NCBI GenBank assembly: GCA_002753515.1
Contig: PEAK01000043.1
Location: 1 to 39,058 of the forward strand
From: Magnetococcales bacterium
GTDB lineage: Bacteria; Pseudomonadota; Magnetococcia; Magnetococcales; UBA8363
Direction of reading: 5' to 3'
DNA: 39,058 nt
The notes below the pieces were generated by a model that saw only the letters and a list, made by a program, of their open reading frames with translations, did not search any database and was not told the origin of the DNA. Shown here one piece after another: positions 653-11,935 of this stretch. The position numbers and the translations under genes were made by a program. Every line of letters begins with the position of its first letter. Position 1 is the first letter of the stretch.

Positions 653-1852
653 CTAGAGGTCAACAGCGCACTCAACAAGCATTCTGATATTGCTTTTATT
701 GACCAAGTTCTTATCGATTGTAAATTTTTCCAGATAACTGCGCAACTGTTCCAGGTCTCCTTGCTTGGCGACGAGAAGATACAACAAGAAATAAACTGAA
801 ACGCCTTTTAAAATATACTCATGATTCTTTTTGACCCCAAAAATATATTTTGAAACTCGAAAAACGATTCTTCTGTGCTTATAAAGCAATTCTTCAATAT
901 CTCCGCTTGTTTTAATTACGCCTACCAAACCAATGGCGTCCACCAGGACATCCATAGCCTTATCAACATACAACAATCGTGCATCATAGAGAGTCGCAAT
1001 GACGCCATCCACGTGTCGTACAAAGACGCTGGTCAATATCACATTTTCCAGCGCAGTTTTATCAATCGGGACACCCTTGTCAGGAACGATCTTTGACAAA
1101 GCAGGGTCGTCAAACTCGGCAAACTCGTCGAGGGGCATATCCAACAGATTTGGAACATGCAAATCTTCACTTTCCTGTTCTTGTGGCACTACTTTAATTT
1201 CATTTTCTACGTTATTTTCAGGTAATTCTGATTGCCACGATATCGGTGTTAAGAAATCCTTGATCGAATTCAGCTCAGTGTCATACAATTCAAGGATATA
1301 AGCCAACTGACTGAATTCACGTAATTTTTCGTTAGGGAATAGCTTATGTTTATACCCGAGGTAGGTCTCAGTCTTTTCCCATGCGTGCTGCATGATAGTG
1401 CAAATTTGCACCTCAATTTTATAGCCGGAATAACGTTCATACTCTAGAAATTCCAGGCGGTGTTCTGGCAATTCCACGACGAGGGTTGTCATCGGGTAAC
1501 CTGAGAAACTGGGATTCTTGTCCAAAATAAGTTTTGGTTCAAGGCTGTGCAGAACCTTAAATCTTTCTCTAACGGCCCTAACAACTGGTAGAACTTCATT
1601 GGCACAATAAACAACGATCCGCAATCCGATCAAGTCATTAATTTCCTTGACTGATACGATTGAACCGATATCATCACTGGCTAATTTACGCTTTAAACTA
1701 TCAAGACTTTTGACACGGCCAGCTATGTCATAGACTTCAAGTCTACTGTAGGTTAAGATATCCTCAACAAATGTAGCCATTCGTAATAGATATTTATTAA
1801 GAATATCACTTTTTACCAAATATTCAGATATTAATTTTTCAGTGATAGTCAT
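653..1852 (-). CDS. RelA/SpoT-domain protein (putative alarmone synthetase), second of a tandem pair
   Basis: A protein of 399 residues. Residues ~40-175 match the RelA/SpoT nucleotidyltransferase (ppGpp synthetase) domain: R46-x-K48-S49 with K54 and K56 (ATP-binding segment), D73 in NDLIGLRI (Mg-binding Asp), and E147 in IEVQICTIMQHAWEKTE (the E-x-Q loop of active synthetases). There is no HD hydrolase domain, TGS or ACT domain, so it is a small-synthetase type with an extra C-terminal half. That half (residues ~260-395, ending in GVSVYFLLYLL.GDLEQLRSYL) resembles the C-terminal half of the neighbouring upstream protein. The ATG directly follows the TAG of that gene (positions 1855-1853 then 1852), so the two are translationally coupled. 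The key residues argue it could pyrophosphorylate a nucleotide or tRNA, as toxSAS enzymes do; the substrate is unknown. Confidence 0.8.
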   Translation of the reverse strand: MTITEKLISEYLVKSDILNKYLLRMATFVEDILTYSRLEVYDIAGRVKSLDSLKRKLASDDIGSIVSVKEINDLIGLRIVVYCANEVLPVVRAVRERFKVLHSLEPKLILDKNPSFSGYPMTTLVVELPEHRLEFLEYERYSGYKIEVQICTIMQHAWEKTETYLGYKHKLFPNEKLREFSQLAYILELYDTELNSIKDFLTPISWQSELPENNVENEIKVVPQEQESEDLHVPNLLDMPLDEFAEFDDPALSKIVPDKGVPIDKTALENVILTSVFVRHVDGVIATLYDARLLYVDKAMDVLVDAIGLVGVIKTSGDIEELLYKHRRIVFRVSKYIFGVKKNHEYILKGVSVYFLLYLLVAKQGDLEQLRSYLEKFTIDKNLVNKSNIRMLVECAVDL

Positions 1853-3016
1853 CTAACCACCATAAGAATTTGAACTATTGATAATTCTCCGCACTGTTTC
1901 CTTGTCCCCGCTTAGTGATGAAATTTTATAAAACATATATAACAAGGACATCCCTCTTACCATATAGCTTCTATCAGCCGGAATTTCATGGAGGAATTCT
2001 TCCTTGATAAAGTCAATTTCCTTCATGTGCTTTTTAAGGATATTTTTCACATCATCGTAGGAAAAATGGCTGAATCTGGCTGCAATCTTACTGAGTTCAA
2101 TGACGAAATGCTCTTTGTATTCCAAATGGGTGTCATAAATATCTGCAATTTTTCTATCAAATATTCTTACATCAGCATCATTGAGAACCAATTCTGAAAT
2201 CTTTTCAAAATTGGCTGCTTCTTCACTGTCCATGGCATCATGAGCGACACGAGGCAGATTGAGCGGTTCTCCCTGGGATTGCATAACAGGAGTATTTTCT
2301 TCAACTTCCTGGATAGATTGATGGGAATTTTGGCCAGGTAGGGGGTCGATGGGGGGGGGCATCACATCTGGAGCTGGCTTTGTTGATTTGTTAATATTAT
2401 TATTTATCAGTTTAACTCTCTTCAACTCTCTATCGGCAATTTCCAGGGCACCGATCACGCGGCTACAAGCTCGGAACAGTTCGGGATGACTTGTTTTACC
2501 CTCTTCACCAAACAACAGGTATTGAATTTCAAACCAAGCGTGCTGGAGTAGTGATTTAACTTCGATTTTAAGCTTTAAATTTTTGAATCTACGATACTCT
2601 ATCCATTCCAGCCTTGAATCCAACATTCGAGTAATATATTGTCTCGGGTAGTATCCAAAGCGTTTCGGATCCCTGGTCTCCGGCTTCATGAAAAAATCAG
2701 TGACAACATTGAATTCACTACCAATAATTTCAGAAATATTATCCGCATCATCCTCAAAAAATGTTAAAACTCTGATAGACACCAGGTCATTAACTTCATT
2801 GATCGTTGAAATACTTCTAAACGGACCAGACATTTTTTTTATCAACGTCTCTCGGTCAAGAATATGACTGTCTATCGAGTAGACACTGATTTTATTTTCT
2901 TTAATGAATGCATCAAAAAGCTTTAAATTGACTTCGACAAAATCTTTATAGACACCAATCTCCCGATCATACTCTGAGATGATTTCACGCTGCAATTTTC
3001 CAAGAGAATCCGACAT
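1853..3016 (-). CDS. Divergent RelA/SpoT-domain protein, first of a tandem pair
   Basis: A protein of 387 residues. The RelA/SpoT fold is seen in VNDLVSIRVLTFF (D77), GYYPRQYI and IEVKSLLQHAWFEIQYLLFG (E152), but the usual R-x-K-S segment is replaced by HILDRETLIKKM and the glycine after the metal-binding Asp is Ser. It may be a weak or inactive synthetase, or a partner/inhibitor of the coupled protein. A proline-rich linker (residues ~210-240) contains a C9 homopolymer, followed by a C-terminal domain shared with the neighbour (D..IADIYD, FVIELSKIA, VRGMSLLYMFYK). I chose the ATG at 3016 because GGGTGGG lies just before it; a TTG at 3034 is the alternative and has no Shine-Dalgarno. The region upstream is very AT-rich, unlike the rest of the window, which fits horizontal transfer. 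Confidence 0.75.
   Translation of the reverse strand: MSDSLGKLQREIISEYDREIGVYKDFVEVNLKLFDAFIKENKISVYSIDSHILDRETLIKKMSGPFRSISTINEVNDLVSIRVLTFFEDDADNISEIIGSEFNVVTDFFMKPETRDPKRFGYYPRQYITRMLDSRLEWIEYRRFKNLKLKIEVKSLLQHAWFEIQYLLFGEEGKTSHPELFRACSRVIGALEIADRELKRVKLINNNINKSTKPAPDVMPPPIDPLPGQNSHQSIQEVEENTPVMQSQGEPLNLPRVAHDAMDSEEAANFEKISELVLNDADVRIFDRKIADIYDTHLEYKEHFVIELSKIAARFSHFSYDDVKNILKKHMKEIDFIKEEFLHEIPADRSYMVRGMSLLYMFYKISSLSGDKETVRRIINSSNSYGG
2351..2359. repeat. G9/C9 homopolymer inside a RelA/SpoT-domain gene
   Basis: Nine consecutive G on the plus strand encode three prolines at about residue 220 on the minus strand, in the linker between the synthetase-like and C-terminal domains. Tracts of this length are prone to slipped-strand errors; a one-base change would cut off the C-terminal domain and uncouple translation of the next gene. 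Confidence 0.9.
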
Positions 3017-3220
3017 GTCCCACCCATTTGCCAATTAAAAATTAAAGTATTAATTCACAAGATTATTTATATAAAGCGCTGTGTAGGATAATCTGGCAAG
3101 TAAATCATGAATAAATCGAAATTAAGACACCATCGCACGCGAAAGGCTATCACATTCAACGCCCTTTAAAAAGCCGTTTTCTTTCCGTAATGGGAACAAC
3201 GATCCGGTTCTCCCCATCCA

Positions 3221-5362
3221 TCAAAACCCGCTTTCACGTACCAAAACAGCGTGCAAGGCCTGCCACATGCGAAAAATGGGACGCTGCGGAACACCTGTCA
3301 CGGAGATGGTTCCACGGGTGACACTGGATACCGTACTATCCTGATCCAGACCCAGATCCACACGATACATCGCCCCCTCTACAACCAGTTTGCCACTACG
3401 GTCCTTACGCACCGGCAAGGTACCTCCGTACAAAGATGCCAGATAAGGTTCGGACAACACATGGGTTGTCGCCCGATCTTTGCGCAATACCCGCCCTGAT
3501 AGCGGGGAAAGATCCGGATTATCCGCATGGAAAATACCCACATCCCCGGGCTTCACCTTGCTGAATTGCAATTCGGAAACATATCCTTTAACAATGGGGC
3601 GCTGGGCATCGATCATGGTCAGCAGAGGCTCTTTGGCGCTCACCCAGTCGCCAATGGCCACGTCTTCCACGACATCAACCACCATGCCGGAAAATGGTGC
3701 CAGGACTTGCAGTTTACCCAATTCCGCCTGGATGGCTTGACGTTGCGTCAGGGCGGTAATTAATTCTTCTTCCAGGGTCTGGGCGCTCTTTTGCGTTACA
3801 GAATCCCCAACCGATTCGGAAAAATCCACCCCTTGCACCGCCAAACGCCAACGGGTCATAACAATGGTGCGCTCAATGCTCTCCAGGCGGTATTGCAAAT
3901 CGGGATCGGTCAATTGCAACAACACATCCCCTTGAACAACACTCTGCCCCGAACGAACCGGCATCTGCGTCACCCGGGCACTGGCAGGGGCGTAGATCAC
4001 CATATGGTTTTCCGCCTGTAACATGGCCGGAGCCTGGGCAATGGTAACCTGCCAGGGGTGGACCAGCATCAGGATCAGGGCCAGGAACAACGCCAGCGTC
4101 AGCCCCAGGTTGCGATTAAAACGGAGTGTATCGCGGAGTCTGTACCAAACCATGATTTCCCTCCCCATGGGGCGCAGGATAAACCACCCGACTTCGACCA
4201 TAAACAGGAAAATTCCCAACAGCTTGAAAGTCGCATGATACACAAGCAAGGCAATGCCAAAAAATAAAAACAAGCGATAAATCCATATGGAAAAAGCAAG
4301 ATAAGTCAGTAAATTTTGCCTTGATGGAGGCAGTATCTCAGGTGGTTTGGCGTTTAATCCAAACAGCCATTCGCGTAATCGCCACCGACCCAGGGCAAAA
4401 GCCCGATCATTAAGATTGGGAATCTCCAGGAAGTCCGAGAGTACGAAATAGCCATCAAACCGCATCATCGGGTTCAGGTTGATGGTCAACGTGATCATCC
4501 ACAGGGCACTGGCCAGGAGAAAAGCGGCGCTGCGTAATGGACCATCGGTAAGAAAACTCCAAGCCAATGCCGCCATGGCAGCCAACATCAACTCTGCCGC
4601 CATTCCGGCCAAACCAACCACCATGCGTTGTCGGCGGGAGGTCAGTTTCCAGACATCGCTGGTCTCGGTGTAGAGTACCGGGACCATGACCAATAACGCC
4701 ACCCCCATGCTGGGGACCCGACAACCAAAGCGTTTCGCAGCGTAGGCATGTCCCAATTCATGGACCATCTTGCTCAAGGATAAAACCCCAGCATAGGCCA
4801 GCAATCCGCTCCAACTGAAAAAATAGGGAAACGTGGTATGAAAAGATTCCCATTGCCTGATGATCAATCCCAGTGCAACCAGCGCCATTGTGGCGAGAAT
4901 GATTAGAAATTCTTTGGAAAACAACCATGTAATAAAAGGCAGGGTGCGATCCAGAAAGCGATCGGGATGCCACAGAGGAAATCGCAGGAACAAATAATGA
5001 TGCAGCAGCCAACGACCCCAATGGGGGCGACTCTTGTACTGAATCTGTACGAAGCGTTCCCGTTCCTGAAATTGCCCGGGACGAATCAGATGACTCCGCA
5101 GCAAATATTGCGCAAACCGTTCCACTTCATACGGGGTCAACTTCAAGGACGTTTGCCCATCGATGGCCTGGGCAATGGCCTCCGGATTGCCCAAATCCCA
5201 GCGGGAGAGCATCTGAAACTCGCTGAGCCCAAGGCGAAAAAAACGATTGCTGGCCGGGTCATGCAGGGTCCATGTGGGGGAACCATCGGCGGCATGGGAA
5301 CCAGGGTAGAGGGAGAGTTCCTCACGCAAGTCCGGCAGTTGCGTATCCATGGCACTCTCCAT
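3221..5362 (-). CDS. M50-family zinc metalloprotease fused to a HlyD-type adaptor
   Basis: A protein of 713 residues. The N-terminal ~110 residues look like a PqqD/winged-helix-like region. Membrane segments follow (about 150-170 and 183-205). The zinc motif HELGH is at 201-205, and the second M50 motif, LNPMMRFDGYF, is at about 296-306 (N297 and the Asp at 303). More membrane helices run to ~435. Residues ~445-700 form a HlyD/biotinyl-lipoyl domain (APASARVTQMPVRSGQSVVQGDVLLQL, a short coiled coil, then LAPFSGMVVDVVEDVAIGDWV). M50 proteases cut within or next to membranes. M50-HlyD fusions are known in export loci, but their substrates are mostly unknown. It is the last gene of a three-gene operon; its ATG is 1 bp after the TGA of the GAF-HlyD gene, and an in-frame ATG at 5350 is a possible alternative start. 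No ATPase is encoded beside it. Confidence 0.88.
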   Translation of the reverse strand: MESAMDTQLPDLREELSLYPGSHAADGSPTWTLHDPASNRFFRLGLSEFQMLSRWDLGNPEAIAQAIDGQTSLKLTPYEVERFAQYLLRSHLIRPGQFQERERFVQIQYKSRPHWGRWLLHHYLFLRFPLWHPDRFLDRTLPFITWLFSKEFLIILATMALVALGLIIRQWESFHTTFPYFFSWSGLLAYAGVLSLSKMVHELGHAYAAKRFGCRVPSMGVALLVMVPVLYTETSDVWKLTSRRQRMVVGLAGMAAELMLAAMAALAWSFLTDGPLRSAAFLLASALWMITLTINLNPMMRFDGYFVLSDFLEIPNLNDRAFALGRWRLREWLFGLNAKPPEILPPSRQNLLTYLAFSIWIYRLFLFFGIALLVYHATFKLLGIFLFMVEVGWFILRPMGREIMVWYRLRDTLRFNRNLGLTLALFLALILMLVHPWQVTIAQAPAMLQAENHMVIYAPASARVTQMPVRSGQSVVQGDVLLQLTDPDLQYRLESIERTIVMTRWRLAVQGVDFSESVGDSVTQKSAQTLEEELITALTQRQAIQAELGKLQVLAPFSGMVVDVVEDVAIGDWVSAKEPLLTMIDAQRPIVKGYVSELQFSKVKPGDVGIFHADNPDLSPLSGRVLRKDRATTHVLSEPYLASLYGGTLPVRKDRSGKLVVEGAMYRVDLGLDQDSTVSSVTRGTISVTGVPQRPIFRMWQALHAVLVRESGF

Positions 5363-5363
5363 G

Positions 5364-6728
5364 TCAAAAGCCGACCAGTCGTCGCATCAGGGCCAGGGGG
5401 CGACGCATGAGATAATAAAACAGCGACACCCGTTGCCCATGGATTTTCGCCGTCCCCCGCAGACCCAACCTGGGGAGTGACTGCCCTTTGAAATCGGCTT
5501 TGAGGCGGTATGCCAATACTTCCTCGGTGGTCAGCTCGGCCCGATAACTGAAGTAACGCAACTGTGCCGCATAGGATAGATCGGGTTCCGCCACGGGATA
5601 CAATTCGATTTCGCTTCCAGGTGGCAGGGCAATGGCATCCGCGATGGGAAGATTGATTTCCAACGCCACCTGCTGTGGATCCGCCAAAGTCATAATACGC
5701 TCGCCAATGGTCACCGGACGACCGATCCAATCATTGGCATCGGTGAACACCGCCACCCCATCGCGCACGGCCACAATTTTGGTCCGTTCCAACTGTTGCC
5801 GAATGTACTGCAAGTCGGCGCTGCGTTGTTCCATGCGCCCTTTCAGGAGAGCGACCTTGGCATTGTCACGCTGGCTGTGCAGGGCGGTTTGTACCGCCTG
5901 GCGATGTTCCGCCCGGGCAACTTCCAGTTCATTGCGGGTCACTGCCAGGAGGTTTTCCAATTTTTTGGCATCCAGGCTCAAAAGGGCTTGCCCAACCACA
6001 ACCGCCTGGTTGGGGGTGACGTAAAATTCATCCACGACGCCATCGATAGCCGCACGGACGATGACGGGGGCGCGGGGCACCACCTCTCCCGGTGCCAATA
6101 CCGATTGCCGCACTGGGATCATCAGCACACCGACGAGTGCCACCACCAACAGCATGCGTCGTCCATTGGGCAACCTTTCCCGCAAGCGGCGCCAGGGATT
6201 GCGACGAACCAAAAGGCTCCACCACACCGGGGCCATGGTAATCCGCAACTGATCGAGGATTTGTTGATCCGCGCCACGCCACGGTTGTTCACGCGCCAAC
6301 ACAACACCACCCAGCAAAGGGGCGGTTGGCTGTGCCTGATCGCCAGGAAGGGCGATGGGAATCCAAAGCCCATGCTCCGGCAACCACTCCCCCCACGCCT
6401 GCGCCAAGGTGTTGGGCAAATCGGAAGCGGTGATGAGAGTGGGAGAGCGTTCCTTGCGTATCCCCAGATGGCGACACACCAGAGTGAGCCACTGCACATA
6501 GGGCACGTCCCGGTCCAATATGGGCAGACCGGAAATGGCGTCGATCTCTCCTTCACCCTTTGCAGAACTCGCTCGCCACAAGGCCGCTTGGCGATAGGGG
6601 ATGAGATAGTTGATCTCATTGACCACCGAATAGTGAAACTCCTCCAGGCTGGCAGCGGTACCCAACCGTTTCTGCAGAGTGAGCAAAGTCCCCAGCGTGG
6701 CATCCAATGCTTCGATGGGGGAACTCAT
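5364..6728 (-). CDS. HlyD-family adaptor with N-terminal GAF-like domain
   Basis: A protein of 454 residues. Residues ~15-175 match the GAF-like domain seen in some HlyD proteins (SLEEFHYSVVNEINYLIPYRQAALW, VQWLTLV, EWLPEHGLWIPI, GGVVLAREQPW). One membrane helix lies at ~191-207. From ~210 to 440 comes the HlyD membrane-fusion module: lipoyl half-motif LAPGEVVPRAPVIVRAAIDG, a coiled-coil hairpin (~255-320), the second half-motif DGVAVFTDANDWIGRPVTIGE, and a beta-barrel. The orientation puts the GAF-like domain in the cytoplasm and the adaptor in the periplasm, so a cytoplasmic cue could be sensed by an export complex (inference). The ATG overlaps the TGA of the preceding HlyD gene (ATGA), and the M50-HlyD gene follows after 1 bp. 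Confidence 0.85.
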   Translation of the reverse strand: MSSPIEALDATLGTLLTLQKRLGTAASLEEFHYSVVNEINYLIPYRQAALWRASSAKGEGEIDAISGLPILDRDVPYVQWLTLVCRHLGIRKERSPTLITASDLPNTLAQAWGEWLPEHGLWIPIALPGDQAQPTAPLLGGVVLAREQPWRGADQQILDQLRITMAPVWWSLLVRRNPWRRLRERLPNGRRMLLVVALVGVLMIPVRQSVLAPGEVVPRAPVIVRAAIDGVVDEFYVTPNQAVVVGQALLSLDAKKLENLLAVTRNELEVARAEHRQAVQTALHSQRDNAKVALLKGRMEQRSADLQYIRQQLERTKIVAVRDGVAVFTDANDWIGRPVTIGERIMTLADPQQVALEINLPIADAIALPPGSEIELYPVAEPDLSYAAQLRYFSYRAELTTEEVLAYRLKADFKGQSLPRLGLRGTAKIHGQRVSLFYYLMRRPLALMRRLVGF

Positions 6729-7624
6729 GGTTTGGCGGCTGATTGCTGACGCAATCCGGAAATGATCCGACCACTCATCCCTGGGGAGAGTTCCGGGAAA
6801 TGACCGATGATTTCACCCAGGACTTTCACATGCTGGCTGACAGCATCGATTTTCGCTCCAAAAGAGATGATTTTTGCGGGATAGCTTTTATTGGTTTCAT
6901 CGATGCGCACCATGAGACGATCCTGCTTGTGTACGCGCTGCAACCATCGGGATGGCATGTTGAACGCTATTTCCAGTTCGCGTGGGTCAAGGATTTCCAT
7001 CAATGCTTCACCGGGCTTGACATACTGGTGTTGCCGCACCGCCAAACTGACGATTTGCCCGGCAAACGGAGCGAAAATACGGCAACTCGCGACTTCTGTT
7101 TGTATGATGGCCAGTTCTGCCCTGGCTTTTTCCTCTTCGGCCTTGGCCGTTACCATTTCAATCGTACTGGTGACTTTGAATTGATCGAGACGACTGTAGA
7201 CCCCGGCCTTGGCAACCTCAGCCGCCAATATGGCTTTGGCCCGCTCCAACCGGGCTTGCGGCAACTTGCACTGCAATTCCACCAGCAATTCCCCCTCGGT
7301 AAACGCTGCCCCTTCGTGCGCGGGAGCGCTCACTACCCGCGCAGCCAATTCGCTGGATAACGTGGTCACTTTCCGGGGGATGAGTTCCACACGCACCTCG
7401 GTTTCCTCTACCGCCACCCGCGAAGTCGGAGCCGCCATCGGTCCCGAAGAGGTCACAGGGGCTTCGGCAGGTTTCTCCGCCCCCTCCTCGGCCAGGAGGC
7501 ATTGCGAACCAATCAACAGCGGGACAACAAGCAACCACCTCCACTTGAAATCACCGGGGGTGGCTGGCCGTTGCTCCGTTGAACACAAACTTTCGTTACG
7601 GTATAGTGCGTGGTGGGGGCACAT
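6725..7624 (-). CDS. HlyD/RND-type periplasmic adaptor (membrane fusion protein)
   Basis: The conserved part shows an N-terminal hydrophobic export signal (WLLVVPLLIGSQCLLAEE), then lipoyl half-motifs around a short hairpin (VELIPRKVTTLSSELAARVV, HEGAAFTEGELLVEL and SCRIFAPFAGQIVSLAVRQH), and a beta-barrel (LEIAFNMPSRWL, GEIIGHFPELSPGMSGRI). This is the periplasmic adaptor of a tripartite efflux or secretion pump, first in the minus-strand operon. The start is uncertain. The frame stays open to 8047, but the N-terminal 140 residues of that extension do not look like protein. I give the ATG at 7624 as an outer limit; a TTG at 7534 sits 3 nt after GGAGG and just inside the signal peptide. The stop overlaps the next start as ATGA. 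Confidence 0.75.
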   Translation of the reverse strand: MCPHHALYRNESLCSTEQRPATPGDFKWRWLLVVPLLIGSQCLLAEEGAEKPAEAPVTSSGPMAAPTSRVAVEETEVRVELIPRKVTTLSSELAARVVSAPAHEGAAFTEGELLVELQCKLPQARLERAKAILAAEVAKAGVYSRLDQFKVTSTIEMVTAKAEEEKARAELAIIQTEVASCRIFAPFAGQIVSLAVRQHQYVKPGEALMEILDPRELEIAFNMPSRWLQRVHKQDRLMVRIDETNKSYPAKIISFGAKIDAVSQHVKVLGEIIGHFPELSPGMSGRIISGLRQQSAAKP

Positions 7625-8085
7625 CCGGGATCTGACAGCGTACCAATACCTCATCGTTTCTTGCCATCGGGTGGGTTTGCCATGCATCGAAACGTTCGTC
7701 ACAGAAGCCACCCTGTTGGTTGGTGGGTGTTGTTCGTACTGGCCAATGGTTGGTTTTCTGCGTGCTCCCTGGCTGATGGTAGCAAAGAGTACCCTGAGAT
7801 AAAAGGCTTTCATACCGACCAAACCTTGAGCGACCCAATCAACCTGGAAGGTTTTCATGCCGTTCCAGAAGATAGTGCAAACAGTTTTGGCGGGTTTGAA
7901 ACCGGAAATGATGAGATTGAACCCGGGGATCGTCCGGCGTTTGCTGTTTGCCGTTCCCAGCATAGCGTAACATTTTGGGATTCTGGAGGCGGGTGCCACT
8001 GAAGAATGGGGGAGAACATGGGTAGTCGAGTATTTGTCACTCTTCAAGGTGTTCCGGGATTGCGATCAATAAATTAAGAGTGACC
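7625..8085. other. Divergent intergenic region between adaptor operon and sensory operon
   Basis: About 460 bp separate the minus-strand HlyD operon from the plus-strand PBP-channel gene and should hold both promoters. The minus strand is open across the whole stretch and a second open frame runs on the plus strand (7610-8002), but neither translation has a recognisable domain or credible composition. The sequence may be a decayed mobile or duplicated segment. I see no clear -35/-10 pair or sigma-54 site in it. Confidence 0.5.
8036..8084. promoter_or_regulatory. 9-bp inverted repeat just before the PBP-channel start codon
   Basis: GTCACTCTT (8036-8044) and AAGAGTGAC (8076-8084) are perfect inverted arms separated by 31 bp. 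The right arm contains the likely ribosome-binding site AAGAG and ends 2 nt before the ATG at 8086. It could be a protein operator or an mRNA stem sequestering the ribosome-binding site; chance is not excluded. Confidence 0.35.
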
Positions 8086-10206
8086 ATGCGAAAAATTCAT
8101 TTTTTTCTGGTAATCCTGGCCGGGTTGGTCGTTCTTGTCACGGCGGCGCATTGGAGTTGGTTCCTCCCGGAAAAAAAAGAGGTGTTGACCATTGGACTGG
8201 GCGGTCCCATGAGTGGCACCTATAAGGAAATTGGTTTTTCCATGCGCCGGGGCGTGGAATTGGCGATCAAAACCATCAATAAAAGCAATCTGCTCAAACA
8301 CTATGAACTCAAGCTGGCGGTGGTGGATGATCACAGCCAGACCAACACCACGGTGACTGCGGAAAAAGCGGCCAGGGAACTGGTGGCAATACCCAACCTG
8401 ACGGCAGTGGTAGGCCATTATTTCAGCGTCCCTTCGGCAGATGCCGGTGATGTGTACCGCATGCATTCCATTCCATTCGTCACCCCATCCGCAACACTCC
8501 CCGCATTGACAGCCAACAATGAATGGGCCTTTGGCATCATGCCGGACGATTATTATCAGGCAACCTTCCTGGCGAATTATGTTATCCATGGTTTGGAACG
8601 CAAAAAAATTGCCGTAATCCATTCCAAGGATCCCTATGGCAATTCCCTGACCGATTTTTTCGTCAATGAGCTAAGGGTCAACGAACTGGCACCCACAGTC
8701 AATGTCGCCATTGACCCAAAGGATTTCGATCCAACATTATTGAAAAATTGGATCGATGAATTTTCCAATTCCGACATTGTCTTTCTGGCAATGAATTATG
8801 TCCATGCCGCCAAGGTCATCCAATATTTGCGCAAAAATGGCATGAATACCGATTTTATCGGTTCCGAAAGCCTTGGTGGTACTCATTTCATCCAGGAAGC
8901 GGGCATCTATGCCGAGGATGTCTATGCCGTTACCCCGTATTTGCCAAGTCTGTTTGGCGAAGAGTCCAAACATTATCAGAACGACTATATCAAAGAATTT
9001 CAACTGGAACCCGATTGGGTCTCCACCTATTCCTATGAATCGGTGCAACTGATCGCCCATGCGATCGGTAATGTGGGGCGTGACACCACAAAGATTCGCA
9101 GCTTTCTCCGCAAGATGATTTCTCCACTGGAAGCGATGCCAAGTATTGCCGGTGACCTTTACTTCAATGGATCGGGCTCCAGCCGCCGCAGTCTTGCCGT
9201 TGGTCAGGTCAAGCAGGGGCGTTTCGGGCCGGCGCGCTTTCAATTGACCCATGTTAAATATCAGGAATTGGCAAAAGCGAAAAAGGAGGCGGAAAGCTCG
9301 GAAATTTTTACCATGGATGGTCAGTACATGAAACGGGCCACTGTGGTCTATACAGGGATTTATGTCAGTGAAATCAAAGCCTTCAATCCGGTTGAAGGGA
9401 GTTTCACCGCCGACTTCAACTTGTGGTTTCGCTGGGATCCCAGCAAGAATAGCGCCCTGGACTTTGAAATGACCTACGGCAAAGTATTGACCGCCAGTAT
9501 TTTAGAAAAATATTTTGATAAAAAGACAAACAACAACTTCATATCCTATGCCGTCTCGGCACGAATGAACGATGAATTCCCTCTTCAGGAATACCCATTT
9601 GATGTACAAGTATTAAAGATTCGCATCAAGCCCAAGGTGAAAACCAATGAAGATTTAATCCTGGTAACCGACATCGACGATGATTCGGTACTGCGAAAAT
9701 CATTGGATTTCGGTCCGTGGAAGGATAGCAACCATTTACAGTTCACCAATAACAAAGAATTTCTTTGGAGCTATCGCAACCCCAAATATGATCGCAAACT
9801 GTTCATGCTTGATCATTCACAATATAATTATCACGTCATCATGAAGAGGAATTCCGCCGCATACGTCATTACGTTCCTCCCCCTCATGATCCTGGTGGGT
9901 ACCGCCTACCTGATTTTCACTCTGGATTTTGATGTATTTTCATCCCGTTACTCCATCGGGGTTCTATCCATTTTGAGTGCCATGTCCTATCACAATGTCA
10001 ACAAATTGGGGGTGGGTTATCTCGTGCGGGGCGACCTGTTTTTCCTGGCCTCTTACGTTTTGTTTTTTTACACAATTCTTGAAACTTCCGTATCCGCTTA
10101 CTTGAAAAAGATCGGGCACGAAACAATCGCCTATCGCCTGGACATTGCCTCCCTGTTCTTTTACCCTCTCGTTGTCTGGGCCGCCTTGTGGGCTTTGCTA
10201 AAATAA
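8086..10206 (+). CDS. Periplasmic binding protein fused to a pentameric ligand-gated ion channel
   Basis: A protein of 706 residues. A hydrophobic N-terminus (~5-28) acts as signal or anchor. Residues ~33-390 are a type I periplasmic-binding fold of the leucine-binding kind (IGLGGPMSGTYKEIG, GVELAIKTINK, AVVGHYFSVPSADA, IAVIHSKDPYGNSL). Residues ~415-585 look like the Cys-loop receptor beta-sandwich (VYTGIYVSEIKAFNPVEGSF, DFNLWFRW, and the Pro-loop signature QEYPFDVQ at ~501-508, without the two cysteines, as usual in bacteria). Four membrane helices follow: M1 ~592-613 with its conserved Pro (FLPLMILV), pore-lining M2 ~620-640 (YSIGVLSILSAMSYHN), M3 ~648-672 and M4 ~685-704. Known biology: pLGICs open a pore on ligand binding. 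The fusion implies gating by a solute bound to the N-terminal domain, parallel in layout to ionotropic glutamate receptors (inference). The ATG at 8086 is preferred over a GTG at 8080. The MCP-like gene follows after 10 bp. Confidence 0.85.
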   Translation: MRKIHFFLVILAGLVVLVTAAHWSWFLPEKKEVLTIGLGGPMSGTYKEIGFSMRRGVELAIKTINKSNLLKHYELKLAVVDDHSQTNTTVTAEKAARELVAIPNLTAVVGHYFSVPSADAGDVYRMHSIPFVTPSATLPALTANNEWAFGIMPDDYYQATFLANYVIHGLERKKIAVIHSKDPYGNSLTDFFVNELRVNELAPTVNVAIDPKDFDPTLLKNWIDEFSNSDIVFLAMNYVHAAKVIQYLRKNGMNTDFIGSESLGGTHFIQEAGIYAEDVYAVTPYLPSLFGEESKHYQNDYIKEFQLEPDWVSTYSYESVQLIAHAIGNVGRDTTKIRSFLRKMISPLEAMPSIAGDLYFNGSGSSRRSLAVGQVKQGRFGPARFQLTHVKYQELAKAKKEAESSEIFTMDGQYMKRATVVYTGIYVSEIKAFNPVEGSFTADFNLWFRWDPSKNSALDFEMTYGKVLTASILEKYFDKKTNNNFISYAVSARMNDEFPLQEYPFDVQVLKIRIKPKVKTNEDLILVTDIDDDSVLRKSLDFGPWKDSNHLQFTNNKEFLWSYRNPKYDRKLFMLDHSQYNYHVIMKRNSAAYVITFLPLMILVGTAYLIFTLDFDVFSSRYSIGVLSILSAMSYHNVNKLGVGYLVRGDLFFLASYVLFFYTILETSVSAYLKKIGHETIAYRLDIASLFFYPLVVWAALWALLK

Positions 10207-10216
10207 TGGTGTTATC

Positions 10217-11935
10217 ATGCTTGCTTTGGATAAATTAAAATTATCATCACACCTGCTTATTCTTTTTTTCTTTGTGGCGATAATTGCCTTGATTATGGGA
10301 AACCTGACCCTGCAAGTCATGAACCGCCTGGAGAATCGCATCCTGGATATCGAAAATACGGATTCCCCCTTGATTTTAGCCGTTTCCGAAGCCTCCAGGC
10401 TGCAAATGAATCAAGCCTTGCGTATGAACGAAATCTTGCTGTACGCCAATGTGGATGACCGACAAAATTTTGAAGTCGCCAACGATGGTTTCATCCGGGC
10501 CGGCAAACAAATGGTCGATGTGTTGGTGGCCACCCGGCATATTGTCCAAAAAAATCTGGAGATACCCTCATCCAACACCGTTAAAAATCAATTGGAGAAA
10601 ATCAAGGCGGCCCTGAATGATATGGAAAAAATCCACGCTTCCTATGAACACCTGGGGGGCTCCATCATTCGCAGCCAGTTCAAATTTCGCTTTTTGACCA
10701 AAGCGGGAATCATCACCGGGAATACCATCCAGGCACCGGAGCAGAGCGAAAAAGAATATCTACAAGCCTTGAGCAAGAACACTTCGGAATTGGATGATGA
10801 AACCAAACGTTTGGAAGCCAAAATAAAGGAAGCTTTCTACCTCACCAAAGATATGATCCGCAATCTGCCGGAACAGGTGGCCAGTGTCCATCACATGGCA
10901 TTGGTCCTCTATATCGCCTGTATGGCCTTTTTGACGATTGGTGGCTTGTTTCTGGTTCTGTTCATTTATAAAATCAACAATGCTCGCACCAAAGAATTAA
11001 GTGACACCCTGGAAAGTTTGTCCCTTCCCTTTCAGGAACATGTGGCATCCCTGCTTAAAAATATTCACCATTTGGATGCAACACTGTCCCGTTTGTTCAC
11101 CGCCAACAGCCAGTGGCAGGAGACTGCGGACAGCTCGGAAATTTCTTTGGCCAGACTGGAAACCTTGTCCCAAGGTACCATCCGCTCCAACATGGAAACC
11201 TTGGCCCTGGTACAGGAAAATGCCCGCAGGCTGTCCGATTCGGATCGCCTGATCGCGGTATTCGCCGATGTTTCCACGAAATCCATGGCGTTGGGGGAGC
11301 AGATTCAAAAAGGGGCGCAACATCTCAGTCAATTCGCCATGCAAATGCACCTGTTGGCCACCAGTGCCAGCGCAGAAGCCTCCCGCTCGGATACGTCCCG
11401 TGGATTCGTTGTATTCACCGAAGAACTGAAACAGATGGCGCAAAAAGTGATCCATTCCGCTGAGGAGATCGCCGAAGCGGCACAAATGACGGTCCGGGAT
11501 CTTCGATCCGGGTATGAAGGGGTGGATGGTGCCCGCAGGCTCTTCCAGGATATTGCCAACGTCGGGGAAAGGCTGAAAACCGAAACCAACAGCGTTATTG
11601 CCACATCACAGCAACACTCCGAGATGGTACGTTCCGTCCACAAAAATACGGTCTCGTTGCGAGAGGGGTTTACGGTGTATTCCAAACTGATCGCAGAGAG
11701 CGAAGACGCCTGCCGCATGTTTCGGGATCAGACCGATGCCATTGCCGAATTGTTGCAGGAAATGCTGGCAACGCTTGAGGAACGGCAGCACCTCATTGAA
11801 CAAGGCGTTACAAGCGGCGATTTGCCCGAGATCCCTGGCGCTATCCAACCCCTGCGCAAAACCTTTGAAAATGACGCCGTCAAAGTTGCCAATGGCATTC
11901 TTCATGGGGACAGCGAAAACACGGAAAAGCACTAA
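10217..11935 (+). CDS. MCP-like membrane signalling protein
   Basis: A protein of 572 residues. TM1 is at ~11-31, followed by an all-helical periplasmic sensor region (~35-225, four-helix-bundle type), TM2 at ~228-252, then a long cytoplasmic coiled coil. Residues ~373-407 (AMQMHLLATSASAEASRSDT then SRGFVVFTEELKQMA) align with the hairpin tip of methyl-accepting chemotaxis proteins, whose consensus is roughly A..TNLLALNA.IEAARAGE.G.GF.VVA.EVR.LA. Several normally invariant tip residues differ (AA to AS, ARAGE to SRSDT), so contact with CheA/CheW may be changed or lost. No obvious HAMP domain follows TM2. It is almost certainly co-transcribed with the PBP-channel gene (10 bp gap), suggesting one sensory unit. 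Its TAA stop coincides with the end of a MITE, but removing the element leaves the same stop, so the C-terminus looks native. Confidence 0.8.
   Translation: MLALDKLKLSSHLLILFFFVAIIALIMGNLTLQVMNRLENRILDIENTDSPLILAVSEASRLQMNQALRMNEILLYANVDDRQNFEVANDGFIRAGKQMVDVLVATRHIVQKNLEIPSSNTVKNQLEKIKAALNDMEKIHASYEHLGGSIIRSQFKFRFLTKAGIITGNTIQAPEQSEKEYLQALSKNTSELDDETKRLEAKIKEAFYLTKDMIRNLPEQVASVHHMALVLYIACMAFLTIGGLFLVLFIYKINNARTKELSDTLESLSLPFQEHVASLLKNIHHLDATLSRLFTANSQWQETADSSEISLARLETLSQGTIRSNMETLALVQENARRLSDSDRLIAVFADVSTKSMALGEQIQKGAQHLSQFAMQMHLLATSASAEASRSDTSRGFVVFTEELKQMAQKVIHSAEEIAEAAQMTVRDLRSGYEGVDGARRLFQDIANVGERLKTETNSVIATSQQHSEMVRSVHKNTVSLREGFTVYSKLIAESEDACRMFRDQTDAIAELLQEMLATLEERQHLIEQGVTSGDLPEIPGAIQPLRKTFENDAVKVANGILHGDSENTEKH

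Follow-up and report, generated by a model that had tools for sequence, protein, structure and literature searches.

What would a bacterium do with a protein in which a periplasmic binding protein runs directly into a subunit of a pentameric ligand-gated ion channel (pLGIC)? A genome of the Magnetococcales, which are magnetotactic bacteria, encodes such a protein, and we asked whether the fusion is real, what would open the channel, and which system in the cell would respond to it. The gene lies in a stretch of 39,058 nucleotides of contig PEAK01000043.1, which we call the window.

One frame, a binding protein and a channel subunit

The gene and the domains that it encodes are:

8080..10206, + strand: PBP-I/pLGIC fusion gene (single open frame; domain matches and orthologs)
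8083..8163, + strand: N-terminal hydrophobic signal or anchor segment, residues 2-28 (hydropathy; helix in the AF2 model)
8176..9249, + strand: type-I periplasmic binding domain (PBP), residues ~33-390 (Pfam, fold match, residue comparison)
9304..9849, + strand: Cys-loop-type (Pro-loop) extracellular beta-sandwich (ECD), residues ~409-590 (profiles, model)
9853..10200, + strand: four-helix pLGIC pore, residues 592-707 (model, profile alignment, ortholog conservation)

The frame is intact from 8080 to the stop codon at 10206, and the initial annotation of this DNA had likewise described one continuous frame. If translation starts at the GTG at 8080, the protein has 708 amino acids; the ATG at 8086, which the initial annotation used, would give 706. 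We number residues from the GTG. The leucine-binding-type fold that had been noticed in the N-terminal part is clear: Peripla_BP_6 from Pfam matches residues 36-378 (E = 5e-35), and the AF2 model of this part superimposes on LivJ (4gnr) with a Z score of 43 and an rmsd of 2.3 over 344 aligned residues. This is a monomer model of the 708-residue channel, built from an alignment of 17 sequences, with a pLDDT of 79. When the full model was used in a fold search, only PBP-type proteins were found among the matches listed, because matches to that domain take up the whole listing.

The channel part is less obvious to standard tools. The initial annotation had proposed checking the protein with HMMER against Peripla_BP_6 and the Neur_chan models, and only the first half of this check turned out positive. 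The Neur_chan models of Pfam do not match the single channel sequence at E <= 1, so that the test would look negative; some orthologs and relatives do give weak scores. Because these models miss the single sequence, NCBIfam and profiles of orthologs are needed. The NCBIfam model LGIC_1 ("ligand-gated ion channel") matches residues 499-698 (E = 2.9e-16). A profile of 12 orthologs (residues 404-708) finds the GLIC-GlyR chimera 4x5t (E = 2e-16) and 5osa (E = 4e-15), with alignments that cover the late ECD and the TMD, and it finds the pores of GABA-A, GlyR, and GluCl receptors at E values of about 1e-11 to 1e-12. Also, phmmer aligns DeCLIC (6v4a) over residues 500-705 (E = 2e-4). In the AF2 model, strands occupy residues 409-590 and are followed by helices at 592-613, 620-640, 645-677, and 681-707, which agrees with the beta-sandwich and the four C-terminal helices that had been claimed. 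The sequence QEYPFDVQ, which had been taken as a signature, is at residues 503-510; its PFD motif (506-508) is invariant in the family, and YPFD (505-508) is unchanged in 17 members. The domain identity of the fusion is secure: it is a complete pLGIC subunit behind a PBP. By analogy with the rest of the family, the channel would be a homo-oligomer, and pentameric. GLIC, GlyR, GABA-A, and GluCl have a homologous ECD and TMD but no PBP domain, and the channel that we describe lacks the Cys-loop cysteines in its ECD.

The initial annotation called a complete fusion rare. It is not a new kind of protein. Since such fusions were published in 2004, the PBP-pLGIC architecture is already known. Where Tasneem et al. 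(2004, PMC549065) treat domain context, they report pLGICs from Magnetospirillum magnetotacticum and Bradyrhizobium japonicum that have a PBP-I domain fused to their N-terminus (PBP-I/ART-LGIC), with the same order of PBP-I, Cys-loop LBD, and four-TM pore; they note PBP-II and Cache neighbors of prokaryotic pLGICs; and they propose from this context that prokaryotic pLGICs are chemoreceptors. Their text on the fusions describes no MCP gene as a partner. The fusion was rightly called functionally uncharacterized, as such domain associations are known at the genome level only (Jaiteh et al. 2016, PMC4795631). DeCLIC is the only pLGIC with a partly characterized N-terminal domain (PMC12664993). 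It shares with our channel a large N-terminal periplasmic domain and a homologous prokaryotic pLGIC core (PDB 6v4a, 9ftg), but its N-terminal domain consists of two jelly-roll lobes linked to Ca2+ (PMC12664993) rather than a PBP.

We find the proposed likeness to the layout of ionotropic glutamate receptors loose. In those receptors, the PBP-I domain is a modulatory N-terminal domain, and the agonist binds a PBP-II domain. This PBP-II domain is interrupted by an inverted K-channel-type pore, whereas our protein has a pLGIC pore, which is unrelated. Pfam and a profile search found no PBP-II domain in the channel protein.

The predicted ligand site and the chemoreceptor-like partner

Given the fold, which ligand should we expect? 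We compared the PBP domain to the E. coli leucine-binding protein (LBP; letters verified as 1usg). Residues S116, T139, and E263 of the channel align with S79, T102, and E226 of LBP, which in LBP and LIVBP bind leucine by its alpha-amino and carboxylate groups. This anchor is complete in all 16 of the Magnetococcales PBP-pLGICs that we checked, and the full set is usually lost in the distant pLGICs and in a branch with MscS pores (see below). W18 and Y202 of LBP are both replaced. Judging from the anchor, an alpha-amino-acid-like solute is the likely gating ligand, and the idea of gating by a nutrient-type solute survives in this narrower form. LBP and the LIV-binding proteins share the fold and the anchor with the channel, but they serve an ABC importer, while this PBP is joined to a pore.

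Alternatively, the PBP might have a ligand that is not an amino acid (an amide, say, or a different carboxylate), or it might merely modulate a channel whose agonist binds at the classical site between subunits of the ECD. Relatives among the fold matches listed bind aromatic acids, amides, or urea, and the loss of W18 and Y202 fits this as well. However, it is hard to square with an anchor that is kept in all 16 Magnetococcales PBP-pLGICs checked and is usually lost in the MscS branch and the distant pLGICs, and we consider it unlikely.

As for what the channel would report to, there is a candidate immediately downstream:

10217..11935, + strand: MCP-like chemoreceptor, 572 amino acids, 10 bp 3' of the channel's stop codon (MCPsignal, Tsr match, co-occurrence)
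10328..10885, + strand: periplasmic domain of the MCP-like partner, residues 38-223 (40% mean pairwise identity)
11303..11476, + strand: signaling-hairpin tip of the partner, residues 363-420, SAEASR...RGF (41% identity; Tsr-tip alignment)

Like MCPs of the Tsr/Tar type, the partner has two TM segments, a periplasmic domain, and a hairpin tip that aligns with Tsr: SAEASR is aligned with AVEAAR, and the E385/R388-type E and R are present. This type of motif is retained in most members and is altered in L042 and L048. The partner differs from Tsr and Tar in its link to a channel gene, in a hairpin loop with one residue fewer than that of Tsr, and in a signaling domain that falls below the threshold. 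MCPsignal from Pfam scores 34.1 bits in the window's partner, against a cut-off of 34.6; it scores 35.8 bits in the partner from L090, and of nine further partners scanned, eight score 24-34.6 bits and one (L047) has no match. The partner from Ca. Magnetocorallium, whose channel is 40% identical to ours, exceeds the cut-off. There is no Pfam match to HAMP in the window's partner or in ten other members scanned. Mean pairwise identity falls to 18% in the linker and 16% after the tip, versus the 40% and 41% given above for the periplasmic domain and the tip. In one MAG (L037:7640-9331), the partner loses homology shortly past its second TM segment, which is probably due to a sequencing frameshift.

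The association between the two genes is tight. Wherever the contig of a close ortholog extends far enough, the partner gene comes directly after the channel gene, even where the remaining neighbors differ. In the close family, about 0-96 bp separate the two genes, with an overlap in one gene model; in Ca. Magnetocorallium, the distance is 287 bp. Separate searches of 48 Magnetococcales genomes, one for the core of the channel (E <= 1e-56) and one for the periplasmic domain of the partner (E <= 1e-47), found 20 channels and 20 partners in the same 18 genomes and neither in the other 30 (Fisher test, 1e-13, not corrected for kinship). Two genomes, G040 and G042, have two channel loci and two partner loci each. 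Between these genomes, the corresponding pairs are 80% identical for the channel and 65% for the MCP; within each genome, the values are 51% and 26%. Duplicated channels in G040 and G042 thus retain their own cognate MCP. The identities of channels and MCPs are correlated overall (r = 0.92), and the window's own genome has 21 matches to CheW domains. The simplest reading is a channel-chemoreceptor pair, and this one-to-one pairing of a PBP-pLGIC with an MCP appears to be new in the literature that we searched. Distant PBP-pLGICs are without this partner: L143, from outside the Magnetococcales, has housekeeping genes as neighbors and no MCP, and L139 has a PBP-II gene. In the latter (L139:2257-6212), the PBP-pLGIC gene overlaps an SBP_bac_5 (PBP-II) gene, which resembles an arrangement that Tasneem et al. 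give for other pLGICs.

How might the pair work? An alpha-amino acid would close the PBP domain of each subunit. This movement would travel through the Cys-loop-type beta-sandwich, as a twist of the ECD, and through the PFD loop to the M2-M3 region, and would open a probably anion-conducting pore. The MCP-like partner would convert the channel event into a CheA/CheW signal. By analogy with Tar and maltose-binding protein, the MCP most likely touches the periplasmic part of the channel through its own conserved periplasmic domain; alternatively, it may sense the ionic or potential change. The main uncertainty lies in how the MCP is coupled and in whether the pore conducts. The data show the domains, the pairing, the conserved anchor and pore residues, and the nested tree described below; from these we infer the ligand, the gating, the anion selectivity, and the coupling to the MCP. 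We give about an even chance to the full proposal, in which the channel is opened by an amino acid, probably conducts anions, and signals to the chemotaxis system by way of its own MCP.

It could also be that the channel acts alone and that the adjoining MCP is an energy-taxis receptor, which would sense a change in potential or ions with no contact between the proteins. MCPs that sense the energy state exist, which we count in favor of this idea, and the best partial match of the partner in NCBIfam is the signaling domain of an Aer2-type aerotaxis transducer. But a pure voltage sensor would need neither a conserved periplasmic domain nor cognate pairs, and in the partner the periplasmic domain and the signaling tip are equally conserved, and the paralogs keep their pairs. 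We find the energy-taxis explanation rather doubtful.

Two other regions of the window are on the minus strand. At 3221-8047 are an M50 protease/HlyD fusion, which resembles daptide-type intramembrane metalloproteases below the cut-off, and two HlyD-like genes. Of 17 channel orthologs, only about 7 have HlyD or M50 genes beside them, so these genes are outside the conserved core of the locus, and we dropped the idea that the window's channel gene is linked to secretion. Two tandem RelA/SpoT-like synthetase genes lie at 653-3034.

The pore and the distribution of the family

The initial annotation was sound about the fusion and pointed towards a likely type of ligand, but it overlooked the MCP partner, the anion-type M2, and the MscS sister family. 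With M2 anchored on GlyR, the pore has R0', S2', G4', L9', N16', and K19', where R623 is 0', L632 is 9', and K642 is 19'; His is at 15', next to the Asn at 16'. R0', G4', L9', and K19' are kept in all 15 aligned orthologs, and none of the 15 has an acidic residue at -1' or -2'. The combination of Arg 0', Leu 9', and Lys 19' without a Glu at -1' or -2' looks like that of an anion channel (R0', L9', and a basic 19' are shared with GlyR), so the pore is probably anion-conducting, if M2 sequences are a guide.

Might the pLGIC part instead be a non-conducting scaffold that lets the PBP signal to the MCP? Coupling to an MCP would not strictly need a current, and the upper pore is polar, with its Asn and His. 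Yet orthologs retain the conserved M2 residues just listed, and the sister clade swapped in another channel pore rather than losing one, so we think that a scaffold is quite improbable.

The channel has about 20 full-length orthologs. The closest, from a Magnetococcales MAG, is 98% identical, and the most distant member of the close family, from Ca. Magnetocorallium paracelense, is 40% identical. In a sample of 398 genomes across the phylum, members of the close family turned up only in the window's own order, Magnetococcales, and no relatives were found in the viral contig set that we searched. The initial annotation had raised the danger that an assembly error or frameshift joined two genes, and these are MAG data, but about 20 orthologs that are intact in independent assemblies, none with internal stops, exclude such an artefact for practical purposes. 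The same genome has a second pLGIC-like gene, on contig C33, which encodes 399 amino acids and no PBP (L074:6245-7444). Elsewhere, a distant PBP-pLGIC (775 amino acids) overlaps a PBP-less pLGIC-like gene (401 amino acids; L073:5015-8525), and these two possibly form a heteromeric channel.

A sister family with an MscS pore

Some distant relatives, of about 950-1140 amino acids, combine a PBP-I domain and an ECD of the same family with an MscS channel. Examples are:

L064:5001-8021: PBP-I + Cys-loop-type ECD + MscS fusion
L057:2106-5537: the same
L071:3856-7269: the same
L185:5974-9042: the same, in Azospirillum sp. B510
L093:4785-7907: the same
L140:3871-6711: the same
L055:4220-7813: split version in two adjacent genes, PBP+ECD (716 amino acids) and MscS+cNMP-binding (476 amino acids)

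The MscS part matches PF00924 (E = 1e-17 to 1e-20), and two of the fusions have a C-terminal cyclic-nucleotide-binding domain (cNMP_binding, E = 1e-16). The PBP+ECD protein of the split version has a possible C-terminal TM segment. Known MscS and bCNG channels share the PF00924 beta-domain and sometimes cNMP_binding, but the sister family bears a PBP-I domain and a Cys-loop-type ECD ahead of the pore.

That the ECD of these proteins is homologous to that of pLGICs is supported by a profile-profile comparison, a tree, and a low-confidence model. First, the MscS-type ECD matches the ECD of the window's family with 98.2% probability (E = 3e-14, 177 columns). In a sequence search of the PDB, a profile built solely from the MscS-type ECD matched no pLGIC. 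The MscS-type ECD is without the PFD loop, which in pLGICs contacts the pore. Second, in a tree of ECDs, rooted on PBP-less pLGICs and with some long branches, all 16 MscS fusions form one clade (98/93) that is nested inside the PBP-pLGICs, and L139, which has a pLGIC pore, is its sister (95/86). A constraint that kept the pLGIC-pored proteins together was rejected (p-AU = 0.018). This nesting points to a swap of the pore. Third, a model of the ECD from L093 matches GLIC with a Z score of 13.9 over 158 residues, and only pLGICs or AChBP are found among the matches listed. This model is of low confidence (mean pLDDT 56), and because its alignment included pLGIC rows, it is not independent evidence.

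Magnetococcales genomes have about 30 loci with MscS-type ECDs, and such ECDs also occur in a MAG of the Thiotrichales (L093) and in one complete genome from another family (G384). In Azospirillum sp. B510, WP_012976639.1 is annotated as an ABC substrate-binding protein and has the PBP-ECD-MscS architecture. Its gene (AZL_RS21910) shares four bases with the gene for the ATPase in a type I secretion operon (ABC, HlyD, TolC) and adjoins a gene for a giant cadherin-like/VCBS protein. Eight further Azospirillum replicons carry the architecture, and type I secretion genes are adjacent in all three that we examined. About 10 of the Magnetococcales loci with MscS fusions also have such genes within a few kb. 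We did not find this architecture in the literature that we searched, so the pore-swapped family appears to be new.

Perhaps the Cys-loop ECD is a portable coupler between a PBP and an effector: a pLGIC pore and a chemoreceptor in Magnetococcales, which together would make an ionotropic sensor for chemotaxis, and in the sister clade an MscS pore, sometimes with a cyclic-nucleotide domain and often with type I secretion and giant-adhesin neighbors. We hold this view tentatively, with slightly more doubt than confidence. If it is true, then the sister family is a natural functional chimera of the pentameric nerve-receptor and MscS families, and it would show that a Cys-loop ECD is able to drive the pore of an unrelated channel. 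This would bear on how force is transmitted from ligand to pore in nerve receptors. One carrier of the architecture, Azospirillum, is culturable and can be manipulated. For the prokaryotic channels with pLGIC pores, chemoreception as the role in the cell was a guess that Tasneem et al. made from domain context in 2004. An obligate MCP partner that duplicates along with the channel makes that guess directly testable.
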